DNA from: Rubrivivax sp.
Lineage (GTDB): Bacteria > Pseudomonadota > Gammaproteobacteria > Burkholderiales > Burkholderiaceae_C
DNA: 64,000 nucleotides
Direction: 5' to 3'
NCBI GenBank assembly: GCA_020852865.1
Contig: JADYZZ010000032.1
Coordinates: 1-64,000, forward strand
Shown here: positions 33,168 to 48,220 of the stretch, in pieces
How the letters are laid out: each line of letters starts with the position of its first letter
Position numbering within the stretch: position 1 is the stretch's first letter
Translations under genes and position numbers: made by a program
Notes under the pieces: model-generated
Databases searched by the model: none
The model's input: the letters and a program-made list of their open reading frames with translations, nothing else
What the model was told of the DNA's origin: nothing

Positions 33168-33179
33168 AGTGTATACACT
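33168..33179. promoter_or_regulatory. GntR/FCD-type operator, proximal palindrome
   Basis: AGTGTATACACT, a perfect 12-bp palindrome sharing the GTATAC core with the distal site and ending 27 bases before the gntR ATG. Its place over the expected -10 or transcription start fits autorepression of gntR and, through the same transcript, of puuE and the uraD-allC fusion. Confidence 0.6.
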
Positions 33180-33205
33180 TCTGTCTCCCAACGCGAGGGC
33201 ATGCC

Positions 33206-33940
33206 ATGGCCAGAAGACCTGCCGCCGCCTTGCGCCTCGTCGACGCGCCCCGTCCCGTGCGGGCCACCGGCAGCGCCACCGACCGCATCGTCGAGTCGAT
33301 CACCAGCGCCATCGTCGAACGCCGCCTGATGCCCGGCACCAAGCTCGTCGAGCAGCAGATCGCCGACGTGTTCTCGGTCTCGCGCACGGTCGTGCGCCAG
33401 GCGCTGAACCGGCTCAGCCGCGATCGCCTGGTGACGCTCGAGCCGGCGCGCGGCGCCTTCGTCGCGATGCCGAGCATCGACGAGGCGCGCCAGGTGTTCC
33501 AGGTGCGCCGCCTGGTCGAAGGCGGTATGGCGCGCCGGCTCGCACAGGCGATCGGCGACGAGCAGATCGCACGGCTGCGCGCGCACCTGCGCGACGAGCG
33601 TCAGGCCGTCGCGCGCGACGACGTTCCGGGCCGCACGCGGCTGCTGGCCGACTTCCACGTCATCCTGGCCCGGCTGCTGGGCAACGAGGTGCTTGCCCGG
33701 CTGATCGCCGACCTGCTCTCGCGCTCGCAGCTCATCGCGCTGATGTACCAGTCGGGCCATTCGGCCGGCCATTCGCAGGCCGAGCATGTGCAGATCGTCG
33801 AGGCGCTGGCGCGGCGCGACGGACGCGCCGCGGCGCGCCTCATGGAGCAGCACATCACCAGCGTCGAGCGCAACCTGCGGCTCGACCCGCGCACCCCCGA
33901 CCTGGCATCGGTGCTCAGGCCCCGGGGGGCCGGCGCATGA
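33206..33940 (+). CDS. GntR family (FCD domain) transcriptional regulator
   Basis: 244 residues. Winged helix-turn-helix at about residues 28-85 (LMPGTKLVEQQIADVFSVSRTVVRQALNRLSRDRLV), then an FCD ligand domain with metal-type residues spaced as D/H-H-H (FHVILARLL, SGHSAGHSQAEHVQIVEAL, MEQHI). It heads a plus-strand operon with puuE and the uraD-allC fusion and faces puuD, so it is the probable purine/allantoin-responsive repressor of both. Its stop codon TGA (33938-33940) lies inside the first codon pair of the 74-nt intercistronic module. Confidence 0.9.
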   Translation: MARRPAAALRLVDAPRPVRATGSATDRIVESITSAIVERRLMPGTKLVEQQIADVFSVSRTVVRQALNRLSRDRLVTLEPARGAFVAMPSIDEARQVFQVRRLVEGGMARRLAQAIGDEQIARLRAHLRDERQAVARDDVPGRTRLLADFHVILARLLGNEVLARLIADLLSRSQLIALMYQSGHSAGHSQAEHVQIVEALARRDGRAAARLMEQHITSVERNLRLDPRTPDLASVLRPRGAGA

Positions 33941-34010
33941 GCGCCGCCCGGCCGCTCCGAAGGCGCTCATTCCCCCTTGGGGGGACGGCGCGCAGCGCCA
34001 AGGGGGCGAC
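33937..34010 (+). repeat. 74-nt intercistronic module, single copy between gntR and puuE
   Basis: Exactly 74 bases from the ATG overlapping the gntR stop (ATGA) to the base before the puuE ATG. It contains two inverted repeats: ATGAGCGCC at the 5' end with GGCGCTCAT further on (9-bp arms), and CCCCCTTGG with CCAAGGGGG (9-bp arms). The last arm carries the Shine-Dalgarno-like AAGGGGG just upstream of the puuE start. puuE itself begins ATGAGCGCC, so the module is flanked by a 9-base direct repeat. Four closely similar units of the same length lie at 42222-42517 between hoxF and hoxU. Confidence 0.85.
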
Positions 34011-34014
34011 ATGA
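33937..34014 (+). CDS. 25-residue mini-ORF in the 74-nt module (putative)
   Basis: ATG to TGA, 26 codons. The peptide begins MSAARPLRRRSF and ends ARSAKGAT; its start overlaps the gntR stop as ATGA and its stop overlaps the puuE start as ATGA. Almost the same peptide is encoded four times in the hox array. It is very basic and probably matters as a coupling leader rather than as a protein. Translation is not proven by sequence alone. Confidence 0.35.
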   Translation: MSAARPLRRRSFPLGGTARSAKGAT

Positions 34015-40870: not shown

Positions 40871-41451
40871 CAGTCGTAGCGGATCGCGTCGCGCCCGAGC
40901 GCGGGCCGGCGGCCCGCGAGCAGCGCGCTCACGACGGCCCAGATGGCATCGGCGCCGGGCGGGCAGCCGGGCAGGAAGTGATCGACCTGCACGAGCTCGT
41001 GGATCGGGTGCACGTGCGCCAGCGGCAGCGGCAGCTCGGGGTCGTCGGGCACGCGCGGGCCCGGCGCCAGGCCCGGCCGCCGCGTGTACACGTCCTGCAG
41101 CAGCTCGCCCACGTCCAGCGCGTTGCGCTGCGCCGGCAGGCCGCCGTTGACGGCGCAGGCGCCCACCGCCACCAGCACGCGGCAGTGGCGGCGCAACGCG
41201 CGCAGCACATGCACGTTCTCGGCGTTGCACAGGCCGCCTTCGACGAGGCCGATGTCGCAGGGCCCGCAGCGCTTGATGTCGGTGAGCGGGCTGCGGTCCA
41301 AGCGCACCACCTCGGCCAGCGCGAACAGGCGCTCGTCGATGTCGAGCAAGGACATGTGGCAGCCGAAGCAGCCGGCCAGCGACACGGTGGCCACACGCGG
41401 CCGAGGCGCGTCGTCGCGCCCGGGTGCGGCCTCGGGTTGCCCGCGCCTCAC
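40870..41451 (-). CDS. hoxY: NAD-reducing hydrogenase small subunit HoxY
   Basis: 193 residues. Small subunit with the proximal Fe-S cluster; ligands are in LAGCFGCHMSLLD, RCGPCDIGLVEGGLCNAENV, VAVGACAVNGGLPA and FLPGCPPGAD. The start is GTG 41451, overlapping the hoxU stop (GTGA); there is no suitable ATG. The N-terminus has about 20 extra residues (RRGQPEAAPGRDDAPRPRV) before the conserved core. Together with HoxH it forms the hydrogen-activating half of the enzyme. Confidence 0.93.
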   Translation of the reverse strand: MRRGQPEAAPGRDDAPRPRVATVSLAGCFGCHMSLLDIDERLFALAEVVRLDRSPLTDIKRCGPCDIGLVEGGLCNAENVHVLRALRRHCRVLVAVGACAVNGGLPAQRNALDVGELLQDVYTRRPGLAPGPRVPDDPELPLPLAHVHPIHELVQVDHFLPGCPPGADAIWAVVSALLAGRRPALGRDAIRYD

Positions 41452-42221
41452 GTGCGCTCCTGCGCGCGCGGCGACGCCGCCGCGGGCGAAACCGGCGCCG
41501 CCGCCGCAGGCGCTGCCGGCGCCGCTGCCGCCGGCGCCGAGACCGGCGCGAGGTCGTAGCGCCGCGCGCCGATCGGCACCGCGAAGCCGCGGCGCTTGGG
41601 CAGGATCGCTCCCACCGGGCAGACCTGGGCGGCGAAATCGCCCGCGGCGAAGCGGCTCGCGCCCAGCAGCCCGCTCGGCGCGTCGACGATGAGGTGGCAG
41701 CCGATGCCGTGGCCGCCGATGGCGAACACGTCCTTGCGGTCGACCTCGTGGCTGGCACGCACGCACAGCTTGCACAGGATGCAGCGGTTGAGGTCGAGCC
41801 AGCAGTCGGGGTGGCTCGCGTCCACCGGCCGGCGCGGGTGGAACTCCTCGAACTGCGGCCCGAGCATGCCGAGTTCGTAGGCGGTGGCCTGCAGCAGGCA
41901 GGCGCCGCTCTTCTCGCAGCTCGGGCAGAAATGATTGCCTTCGACGAACAGCATCTGCAGCAGCAACAGGCGACGGGCGTCGAGCTCGGGCGTGCGGTTG
42001 CGCACCTCGAGCCCGGGCTGCGCCGGCGTCGTGCAGGCGGCGGCGAAGTGCCCGTCGAGCTGCACCACGCACAGGCGGCAGGCTCCGCTCTGGCCGAGCC
42101 GCTCGTGCCAGCACAGGTGCGGGATGTAGTGCCCGGCGCGCCGCGCGGCCTGCATGATCGTCTCGCCCTCGACGAAGGCGACGGCGGCGCCGTCGAGCGT
42201 GAAGCTCGCGCCGGCGCTCAC
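41448..42221 (-). CDS. hoxU: NAD-reducing hydrogenase diaphorase small subunit HoxU
   Basis: 257 residues, homologous to the N-terminal part of NuoG. Fe-S ligands are in CWHERLGQSGACRLCVVQL (2Fe-2S), HFCPSCEKSGACLLQ and the ferredoxin-like CILCKLCVRASHE and CPVGAILPKR. The C-terminal 40 residues are an Ala/Pro-rich tail beyond the usual length of about 235. The start is GTG 42221 (peptide MSAGASFTLDG), directly after the fourth 74-nt module, whose mini-ORF stop overlaps this GTG. Confidence 0.93.
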   Translation of the reverse strand: MSAGASFTLDGAAVAFVEGETIMQAARRAGHYIPHLCWHERLGQSGACRLCVVQLDGHFAAACTTPAQPGLEVRNRTPELDARRLLLLQMLFVEGNHFCPSCEKSGACLLQATAYELGMLGPQFEEFHPRRPVDASHPDCWLDLNRCILCKLCVRASHEVDRKDVFAIGGHGIGCHLIVDAPSGLLGASRFAAGDFAAQVCPVGAILPKRRGFAVPIGARRYDLAPVSAPAAAAPAAPAAAAPVSPAAASPRAQERT

Positions 42222-42517
42222 CTTGCCCCCTGGGCGCTGCGCGCCGTCCCCCCGAGGGGGAACGAGCGCCTTCGGAGCGGCCGTGCGGCGCTCATGCCGC
42301 CCCCTGGGCGCTGCGCGCCGTCCCCCCGTGGGGGAACGAGCGCCTTCGGAGCGGCCGTGCGGCGCTCACCTTGCCCCCTGGGCGCTGCGCGCCGTCCCCC
42401 CGTGGGGGAACGAGCGCCTTCGGAGCGGCCGTGCGGCGCTCACCTTGCCCCCTGGGCGCTGCGCGCCGTCCCCCCGAGGGGGAACGAGCGCCTTCGGAGC
42501 GGCCGTGCGGCGCTCAT
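42222..42517 (-). repeat. Four tandem 74-nt intercistronic modules between hoxF and hoxU
   Basis: Exactly 4 x 74 bases: 42444-42517, 42370-42443, 42296-42369 and 42222-42295. The units differ at only a few positions (ATG or GTG start, CTC or CAC in the middle, CAAG or CGGC end). In transcript sense each begins (A/G)TGAGCGCC, contains GAGCGCC/GGCGCTC and CCCCC...GGGGG inverted repeats and ends in CAGGGGG shortly before the next start. Each encodes a 25-residue peptide (MSAARPLRRRSFP-L/H-GGTARSAQGA...), with stops overlapping the following start: mini-ORFs at 42440-42517, 42366-42443, 42292-42369 and 42218-42295. The hoxF stop overlaps the first unit (ATGA), and the last mini-ORF stop overlaps the hoxU GTG. 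A fifth copy lies at 33937-34010. Confidence 0.93.
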
Positions 42518-44355
42518 GCCATGCGCTCCAGGTGCGCGCCGGGGTCGTCGCGGCCGGTGACGCGGCGCGCCGGCTCGAGCTCGGCATCGAGGTCGAAGGC
42601 GGGCACGAAACGCGGCTGCACCAGGCGTCGCTCGTACGCCGGGCGAAAGCGCGCCAGCGTGTCGCGCAGCGGGTTGCTCGCGTTGGCGCCCAGTCCGCAG
42701 TGCGTCGAGCCGTGCAGCAGTTGCTCGAGCGCATGCAGCTCGGCCTCGTCGAACAGGCTGCCGAAGCCGGCGGCGAGCTTGTCCATGCGGCGCACGATGA
42801 GTTCGGTACCGACGCGACACGGCGTGCAGAAGCCGCAGCTCTCGTGCGCGAAGAACCGGGCGTAGCCGCGCGCCACTTCGAACAGGTCGCGCGTGCGGTC
42901 GAAAACGGTGAAGGCGCCGGTGCTGGCCAGGTCGTCGAAGTCGATGCGACGATCGAACTCGTGCGCGGCCAGGCAGACGCCCGAAGGGCCGCCCACCTGC
43001 ACCGCCTGCGCATCCGGCGCGCCGGCGGCCTCGAGGATCTCGCGCACGCTCACGCCGAACGGGTACTCGTAGACGCCGGGCCGCGCGACGTCGCCGCTCA
43101 CCGAATGGATCTTGGTGCCGCTGCTGGCGGCGGTGCCGCTGCGCGCGAACCAGGCGCCGCCGCAGCGCGCGATCTGCGCCGCCGCACACAGGGTCTCGAC
43201 ATTGTTGACGACCGTCGGCTGGCCGAGGTAGCCGTGCGTCACCGGATACGGCGGGCGGATGCGCGGCGTGCCGCGCTTGCCCTCGAGCGACTCGATGAGC
43301 GCGCTCTCCTCGCCGCAGACGTAGGCGCCGCAGCCGACGTGGATGGCGATGTCGAAATCGAAACCCGCGCTGCCGAGGATGCCCTTGCCGAGCAGCCCTG
43401 CGGCGCGGCGCGCCGCCAGCACCGCTTCGAGCGCCTCGAGCAAGAAGCGGTACTCGCCGCGCAGGTAGACGAAGCCCTGGCGCGCGCCCAGCACCCAGGC
43501 CGCCACCGCCATGCCCTCGAACAGCGTGTGCGCCTGGCGCGCCAGCAGCACGCGGTCCTTGAAGGTGCCGGGCTCGCCCTCGTCGGCGTTGCACACGACG
43601 ACGCGCGTGCCGCCTTCGGGCACCGCCGCGCGTCGCGCGAGCCGCCACTTGGTGCCGGTGGGAAAGCCCGCGCCGCCGCGCCCGCGCAGGCCCGAAGCCT
43701 CGATCTCGCCCAGCGTGGCCTCGGCGCCGCGCGCCAGCGCCGCACGCAGCGCCTCGCCCGCGAGCGGCGCCGCGGCGAGCAGCATGTCGGCGCGCTGCAC
43801 GTTGTCGTCGACGCGCTGCCACTCGGCCGGCCATTCGGCCGGCGGCACCTCGGCGAGCACGAGGTCGGCCAGTTCGGCCACGCGCTCGCTGTCCATGCGC
43901 GTCAGCACGCGATGGTGGTTGACGAGCAGCGCCGGACCCTGGTCGCCGAGGCCCGTGCAGGAGGTGGTGCCGATGCTGGCCAGGCCGTCGGCACGCACCA
44001 GGCCGGGCGCCACGCCCAGGCGGCGGTGCAGCTCGCGCGCCAGCACGCGGCTGCCGGCCTGGCGGTCGGTGACGTTGTCGCTCCACAGCAGGTGGCAGCG
44101 CCCCACCGGCTCGAGATGCAGGAAGCGGTAGAAGCCGGCCACGCCCTGCACGACGGCCGGCGTCAGGCCCACGCCGGCGGCAATGCGCCCCAGCACGGCG
44201 CGCGGCAGCCAGCCGGTATGCGACTGCACCTCGCGCAGGATCTGCACCAGCTCATGGCGCAGCGCGCGCCCGGGCACGGCGCGCGCGGCCAGCACCTGCT
44301 CGACGGCAGCGAAGGCGGCACCGGCGTCGAACGGGATTGACGCCGCAGGATTCAT
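42514..44355 (-). CDS. hoxF: NAD-reducing hydrogenase diaphorase large subunit HoxF
   Basis: 613 residues. NAD(H)- and FMN-binding subunit. Residues 1 to about 160 are NuoE-like; only one of the usual Cys ligands is obvious (TTSCTGLGDQGPA), so that cluster is probably absent, as I recall for some other HoxF proteins. From about 215 the NuoF-like part has SGLRGRGGAGFPTGTKW (FMN site), NADEGEPGTFKDR (NADH site), YVCGEESALIESLEGKRG and ESCGFCTPCRVG plus a Cys near THCGLGA ([4Fe-4S]). It starts 46 bases after the 5-oxoprolinase stop, so transcription from that gene may continue into hox. No hyp, hoxI or nickel-uptake genes are in the window. Confidence 0.95.
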   Translation of the reverse strand: MNPAASIPFDAGAAFAAVEQVLAARAVPGRALRHELVQILREVQSHTGWLPRAVLGRIAAGVGLTPAVVQGVAGFYRFLHLEPVGRCHLLWSDNVTDRQAGSRVLARELHRRLGVAPGLVRADGLASIGTTSCTGLGDQGPALLVNHHRVLTRMDSERVAELADLVLAEVPPAEWPAEWQRVDDNVQRADMLLAAAPLAGEALRAALARGAEATLGEIEASGLRGRGGAGFPTGTKWRLARRAAVPEGGTRVVVCNADEGEPGTFKDRVLLARQAHTLFEGMAVAAWVLGARQGFVYLRGEYRFLLEALEAVLAARRAAGLLGKGILGSAGFDFDIAIHVGCGAYVCGEESALIESLEGKRGTPRIRPPYPVTHGYLGQPTVVNNVETLCAAAQIARCGGAWFARSGTAASSGTKIHSVSGDVARPGVYEYPFGVSVREILEAAGAPDAQAVQVGGPSGVCLAAHEFDRRIDFDDLASTGAFTVFDRTRDLFEVARGYARFFAHESCGFCTPCRVGTELIVRRMDKLAAGFGSLFDEAELHALEQLLHGSTHCGLGANASNPLRDTLARFRPAYERRLVQPRFVPAFDLDAELEPARRVTGRDDPGAHLERMA

Positions 44356-44401: not shown

Positions 44402-48220
<3,819 letters not shown>

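Follow-up and report, generated by a model that had tools for sequence, protein, structure and literature searches.

REP and BIME elements, which go with RAYT transposases, are short dispersed palindromes with an abutting tetranucleotide. Mycobacterial interspersed repetitive units (MIRUs) use 'DTGA' sites and were reportedly described by Supply et al. in 1997. A recent review, in the part covered here, gives MIRUs as its example of a repeat that exploits translational coupling: they are apparently mobile, inserted at start codons, and contain an internal open reading frame (ORF) that is coupled to the next gene at −4, which is said to minimise the impact of insertion (PMC12548453). According to part of a second source, MIRUs are 40–100 bp long, interspersed, often in tandem, and present at 41 places in H37Rv (PMC2734929). 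The Beta-proteobacterial repeat element (BRE) of Bordetella is GC-rich, 75–91 bp at full length, and tandem in variable number; the portion of the BRE paper covered places it mostly between co-directed genes, with some copies overlapping ORF ends by a few bases, lists it also in Rhodoferax, Polaromonas, Delftia, and Acidovorax, and mentions neither a stop/start architecture nor a mini-ORF nor any coupling (Hot et al. 2011, PMC3110155). Bor-1 is an intergenic stem-loop family of 93–117 nt from Bordetella (PMC2267715, in part). Finally, the RTGA (−4) overlap is the commonest coupled junction, and coupling is nearly gone at a distance of about 20 nt (Huber et al. 2019, 2023; PMC10666635, in the part covered); these measurements were made on gene pairs in H. 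volcanii and E. coli, not on repeat inserts.

The repeat that we describe here, found between hoxF and hoxU of a Rubrivivax sp., resembles MIRUs as these partial accounts portray them. It consists of short, interspersed, and partly tandem units at start codons with an internal ORF coupled at −4, as judged here by sequence only. The units are mostly 74 nt long (range 62–101), and 22 of 128 unique arrays contain two to four of them. Unlike MIRUs, the repeat belongs to another phylum, has three covarying hairpins and a Shine–Dalgarno (SD)-like end, and has distant relatives in both orientations. We would therefore class it as a MIRU-like element of Burkholderiales and not as a MIRU, the two being likened by description and not by sequence. 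The initial annotation knew of no named system of this design, but one exists, the MIRU. With BRE, again as partly covered, the repeat shares the order, one genus (Rhodoferax), the GC-richness, and the tandem arrangement. The commonest unit length of 74 nt and the 79–83 nt of distant relatives stand beside the 75–91 bp of BRE, and BRE may be kin from the same superfamily, although this comparison also uses descriptions only. REP and BIME share the short dispersed palindromes with an abutting tetranucleotide; the Burkholderiales repeat differs from them by its stop/start placement, its mini-ORF, and a copy number without a link to Y1_Tnp. Judged by title and abstract, none of the open-access papers listed deals with stop/start repeats of this kind in Burkholderiales, and the BRE paper was the closest among them.

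The array between hoxF and hoxU

The window, by which we mean the whole stretch of 64,000 nucleotides analysed, contains the following features:

hoxF (diaphorase subunit), 42514..44355, minus strand: ORF with Pfam Complex1_51K and NADH_4Fe-4S matched in frame
Unit 1, 42444..42517, minus strand: 74 nt, starts ATGAGCGCC; mini-ORF 42517–42440
Unit 2, 42370..42443, minus strand: 74 nt, starts GTGAGCGCC; mini-ORF 42443–42366
Unit 3, 42296..42369, minus strand: 74 nt, starts GTGAGCGCC, tail GGC; mini-ORF 42369–42292
Unit 4, 42222..42295, minus strand: starts ATGAGCGCC, same as unit 1; mini-ORF 42295–42218; SD-like AGGGGG at 42231–42226
Final GTGA, 42218..42221, minus strand: stop of mini-ORF 4 and start (GTG) of hoxU
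hoxU, 41448..42221, minus strand: ORF with Pfam Fer2_4 and NADH-G_4Fe-4S_3 matches
Single unit of the same family, 33937..34014, plus strand: ATGA to ATGA, between the genes of a GntR/FCD regulator and a polysaccharide deacetylase

We could confirm the initial observation of four 74-nt units running from RTGA to RTGA between hoxF and hoxU, and assign them to the minus strand. The array opens with an RTGA that includes the TGA stop of hoxF (42516–42514), and the minus-strand end of hoxF reads ATGGCATGA. Each unit contains a 25-codon ORF from RTG to TGA, and this TGA overlaps the following RTG by 4 nt. Units 1 and 4 are identical, and unit 2 differs from them at two and unit 3 at five bases. The four peptides, described initially as the same in every unit, are near-identical only, with L/H and R/A differences. 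Tandem Repeats Finder reports the array with a period of 74, 4.1 copies, 95% matches, and a score of 568 (second-best repeat of the window: 102). Short tandem repeats with a period of 24 nt occur at 41469–41539, in hoxU near the C-terminus, and at 45304–45375, in a long hydantoinase-like open frame. Rfam covariance models gave no match between 42100 and 42700 up to an E value of 1. The array is not a product of chance, because a search of the same genome with one unit returns 22 copies spread over 14 places, the weakest being a 29-nt piece.

Dispersal, placement, and orthologous sites

One of these places is the single plus-strand unit of the window, which is flanked by the open frame of the regulator (33170–33937) and by the start of the deacetylase gene at 34011. 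A DNA search detected the family in 15 of 41 genomes including its own, namely in 14 of 24 others of the genus and in none of 16 from other families. With the covariance model R1, the family was found in 78 of 81 genomes of the genus and in 26 of 300 genomes of the order, the own genome counted in both. A core-pattern search of named records returned 98 stretches, with source names for 80. Most of the 80 matches listed are from Burkholderiales (Rubrivivax, Aquabacterium, Ideonella, Rhizobacter, Rivibacter, Inhella, Rhodoferax) or carry only the name 'Proteobacteria', and no mycobacterium is among these 80 of 98. Five listed matches name other groups: L086, a Brevundimonas MAG, holds an array; L087, L113, and L129 gave none; and L120 is a match at chance level only. 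An array is also present in L072, a Vitreoscilla MAG. A plasmid search gave one weak match to a Variovorax plasmid (76%), and a phage search with the repeat family gave no match.

At 107 of 120 array left ends examined the array starts with TGA, and this TGA is preceded by A or G in 105 of the 107, compared with 175 of 438 TGA stops away from copies. Coding in the flanks was judged by a codon-usage score trained on 285 long frames; after L120 had been dropped from the 128 arrays as a chance match, the flank test used the 123 with a score of at least 30. Upstream, the frame that the TGA of the unit closes is the coding one in 92 of 117 testable arrays; downstream, the frame that the final RTGA opens is the coding one in 100 of 123; and 77 of 123 arrays fit the predicted frames at both flanks. 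As a background, coupling by RTGA is seen at 88 of the 533 gene ends that lie away from copies. The 25 upstream flanks that fail comprise 8 in the right frame without TGA, 11 in another co-directed frame, 3 in the opposite direction, and 3 that are non-coding. Pfam domains were found in the predicted frame for 19 of 20 flanking frames submitted, the exception being the 218-aa frame of L024; eight of 28 frames were left out, of which seven were short or doubtful (L007, L008, L026, L027, L028) and one was the pyrC of L043, which had served as query. Genes flanking the copies include those for complex-I-like 49 kDa and 24 kDa subunits, dipeptide ABC ATPases, and pyrB/pyrC. The initial annotation could have fallen on the position of copies relative to stops and starts and on the conservation of the frame; this test, run in part, did not refute it. 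At L047, L107, and L133 the copy ends in ATGC instead of ATGA downstream of apparently the same gene, and the neighbour may be convergent.

We compared orthologous junctions with and without the repeat. HoxU matches occur in 21 of the 81 genus genomes; 22 hoxF/hoxU loci were used, not counting a weaker second match in one genome (G001, L186), and 21 of the 22 junctions could be parsed. The own genome (G000) has the four units. A bare RTGA overlap in frame with hoxU is present at 17 of the 20 other parsed loci, and G095 carries a different unit of 62 nt that runs from GTGA to GTGA with a 21-codon frame, again at −4. L167 reads ATGA, ten bases, ATGA, and L182 has CTGA and a short gap. The RTGA-to-RTGA spacer of L167, like those of L346 and L347 at pyrB/pyrC, measures 14 nt (2 mod 3) and contains a 5-codon frame. 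At the nuoD/nuoE-like junction, where the analysis covered 15 of the 30 loci returned, the own genome has three units; of 14 relatives (L387–L400), nine have a bare RTGA, one (L389) has another repeat after its RTGA, and the other four have no RTGA.

At the pyrB/pyrC junction, a plain RTGA overlap is found at 49 of 81 loci (79 genomes), a count that takes in L278, L280, L290, L298, and L337 and leaves out L283, L320, and L356, in which pyrB runs through a repeat. The remaining 32 loci are 12 short gaps, 14 measured inserts, 3 extended pyrB genes, and 3 long spacers outside the measured set (L319, L341, and L345, the last with CTGA on its left). Units of the family, or inserts with its length and ends, lie exactly at ATGA/GTGA in L276, L295, L304, and L310 (74 nt), in L302 (101 nt), and in L317 (74 nt, strongly diverged). 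The last is the pyrB/pyrC junction of the own genome (G000:C25:2057-2557), and its unit was missed by the single-unit search. Another GC-rich repeat is found at this junction in L283, L320, L356, L291, L303, and L332; in the first three, the pyrB frame stays open across this repeat and its end is still an ATGA. L353 holds a second pyrC-like gene without the diverged unit of L317. Taken together, the empty and filled orthologous sites suggest that the repeat is apparently mobile and was inserted at start codons.

Terminal inverted repeats were not seen by eye. Copy number is unrelated to Y1_Tnp, with medians of 9 in the 33 of 81 genus genomes that have a Y1_Tnp match and 10 in the others (p 0.23). 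RAYT as a general mobiliser was rejected on this ground and because the own genome has a single partial gene at a contig end. A target duplication longer than RTGA was rejected as well: the three bases before RTGA agree between the two sides of the array in 4 of 102 cases (2.0 after shuffling), and any target duplication would thus be RTGA alone, which is too short for certainty. Tandem units often share the same three-base tail, as fits local duplication.

Hairpins, reading frame, and origin of the inserts

From the 83 selected units, 77 were aligned (L002 twice, L026, L109, L123, and one unit of L162 were left out). This alignment supports three hairpins (7+3, 6, and 5 pairs), with pairing in 98.1% of cells, and 12 of the 21 hairpin pairs contain double changes. 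The core pattern fixes 20 bases of hairpins 1 and 2, which partly imposes conservation there on 56 of the 77 rows; hairpin 3, which the search pattern does not cover, shows double changes in 4 of its 5 pairs. Overall, 72 cells with double changes were observed, as opposed to 19.7 after shuffling and 5–10 in slid controls. The covariation indicates that the three hairpins are held by compensatory changes. The arms GAGCGCC/GGCGCTC, proposed initially as pairing partners, indeed covary; CCCCC pairs with the adjacent GGGGG, and these C–G pairs hardly vary, so that they speak neither for nor against the initially proposed hiding of the SD-like GGGGG. In the covarying fold the SD-like 3′ end is predicted to be single-stranded. 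In a 101-nt form of the unit (L263–L265), the loop of hairpin 2 is longer by an insertion of 27 nt, a length divisible by three.

The reading frame is maintained along with the hairpins. Among 148 units, 31 gave our script no RTGA, which leaves 117. The length is 2 mod 3 in 107 of these (74 nt in 93, 77 nt in 12, and 71 nt in 2), and 99 of the 117 have a start codon and a stop at exactly −4. The ten units that are not 2 mod 3 break the frame; one of them is the middle unit (75 nt) of the nuoD/nuoE-like array. The unit 3′ ends are mostly CAAGGGGGC, CAAGGGGGT, or CCAGGGGGC (66 of 83 units), and in 98 of 117 the SD-like run ends four bases short of the following start. We discarded the stop-free frame as evidence for an ORF: across the three forward frames, interior stops occur in 0, 1, and 3 of 89 units, and openness alone proves little because the forward frames of such GC-rich units are nearly stop-free anyway.

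The pyrB/pyrC inserts extend this pattern to other sequences. Fourteen inserts of more than 20 nt were measured. RTGA stands to the left of 13 of them, and all 13 are 2 mod 3 and contain an open mini-ORF of 21–42 codons, the stop of which overlaps the pyrC start by 4 nt. Their lengths are 62, 71, 74 (five times), 80 (twice), 101, 116 (twice), and 125 nt, and they comprise several sequence types. The one other insert, L324, has a CTGA at its left and does not keep the frame. The 13 are a count of loci and not all independent events: L295/L304, L291/L303/L332, and L349/L352 look alike. Since clearly different insert sequences share the frame property, common descent of one unit cannot explain it.

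A first possibility to be weighed against these data is that the unit is a repeated small gene, with the 25-residue basic peptide as its product. In its favour, 99 of 117 units have an open frame that begins at a start codon and ends at the exact stop, and the frame is kept. The peptide, however, is not conserved: the 83 distinct units encode 79 distinct peptides, the non-synonymous fraction is 0.644 in the mini-ORF frame versus 0.641 in frame 1 (expected: 0.698), compensatory changes in the helices often alter mini-ORF residues, and inserts of other sequence encode other peptides. This explanation is very improbable. With covarying hairpins, a frame that is kept, and no conservation of the peptide, it is structure and frame, and not residues, that appear to be under selection. 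A REP-like palindrome with a structural role in DNA or mRNA, such as 3′ protection or a polymerase or gyrase site, would have come to its position for lack of other space. The three hairpins with their compensatory changes speak for it, as do some copies outside coupled junctions and the folding of the four-unit array, which is better than that of shuffled sequences (z −3.2). A single unit, by contrast, folds no better than shuffles (z −1.4), a link to Y1_Tnp or RAYT is missing, and a palindrome of this kind leaves unexplained why RTGA stands at either end, how the units are oriented with respect to the genes, and why inserts of different sequence have a length of 2 mod 3; we consider it unlikely.

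The exact stop/start geometry and the presence of four units at hoxF/hoxU could also reflect a translational control specific to the hydrogenase, in which a four-step ladder tunes HoxU relative to HoxF, and the different 62-nt unit of G095 at this very junction is in keeping with it. However, the same unit occurs between many unrelated gene pairs, and the bare overlap prevails at the other parsed hoxF/hoxU loci. The special role in setting HoxU against HoxF that was proposed initially is thus unsupported, and we judge it quite unlikely. The more general idea of a termination–reinitiation ladder is supported as a design, by the frame. The other initial proposal, a mobile palindromic repeat that brings its own start and ribosome site and so avoids polar damage, is well supported by the dispersal, the empty RTGA sites, the hairpins, and the preserved frame. 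Our preferred reading, to which we assign a probability of about 0.85, is that a short interspersed repeat, mobile now or formerly, enters the RTGA overlaps of operons and leaves RTGA, about 70 nt, and RTGA behind, and that it would survive because its mini-ORF and SD-like end keep the two genes coupled in translation; the four hoxF/hoxU units would be one array of this dispersed family and not a dedicated hox regulator. According to this reading, ribosomes that finish the upstream gene would restart on the mini-ORF, read through the hairpins of the unit while translating it, stop at the next RTGA, to which the SD-like AAGGGGG or CAGGGGG lies close, and begin again on the downstream gene. As reinitiation is almost nil at gaps of about 20 nt, a frameless insert of 70 nt should uncouple the two genes; a mini-ORF that bridges both RTGA would not break the coupling, and the reported loss of coupling with distance (PMC10666635, in the part covered) would explain the need for it. 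Inserts that break coupling would be removed by selection, and tandem units would arise mostly by local duplication.

Relatives across the Burkholderiales

We lean towards a broader statement, namely that Burkholderiales harbour a wide class of mobile repeats, which differ in orientation, comprise several unrelated sequences, and occupy stop/start overlaps by way of a bridging mini-ORF; their frames would be a natural experiment showing that termination–reinitiation coupling is actively kept by selection at such junctions. If true, a second and apparently unrelated lineage of coupling repeats, after MIRU, would generalise the idea. Orthologous junctions with no, one, or several units make selection on coupling testable, the units constitute natural bicistronic linkers of known length, and they may lie behind some of the very small genes that are predicted within operons of these genomes.

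Three-hairpin relatives were also collected order-wide. Among 64 copies, which were picked by hand from the covariance-model matches and are not all copies, 18 have the same orientation as the genes and 46 the reverse. An end at −4 is found in seven of the 18, the units being 62, 74, 77, and 83 nt long, and several others of this orientation lack RTGA at one end. In the genus g71, the reversed unit is mostly 82 nt long, and in 13 of 15 copies its mini-ORF ends 1 nt ahead of the following start. In the genus g38, 9 of 22 reversed copies end between −4 and +3 of the start, and the others run past it or have no start within reach of the script. On these counts of copies ending near a start, the bridging frame is clear in one reversed lineage (g71) and only partial in the other (g38). 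In both genera (g71: L248–L253, L357–L362; g38: L254–L257, L363–L378) the mostly reversed units lie at ATGA/GTGA right after the stop and measure about 82 or 78–79 nt.
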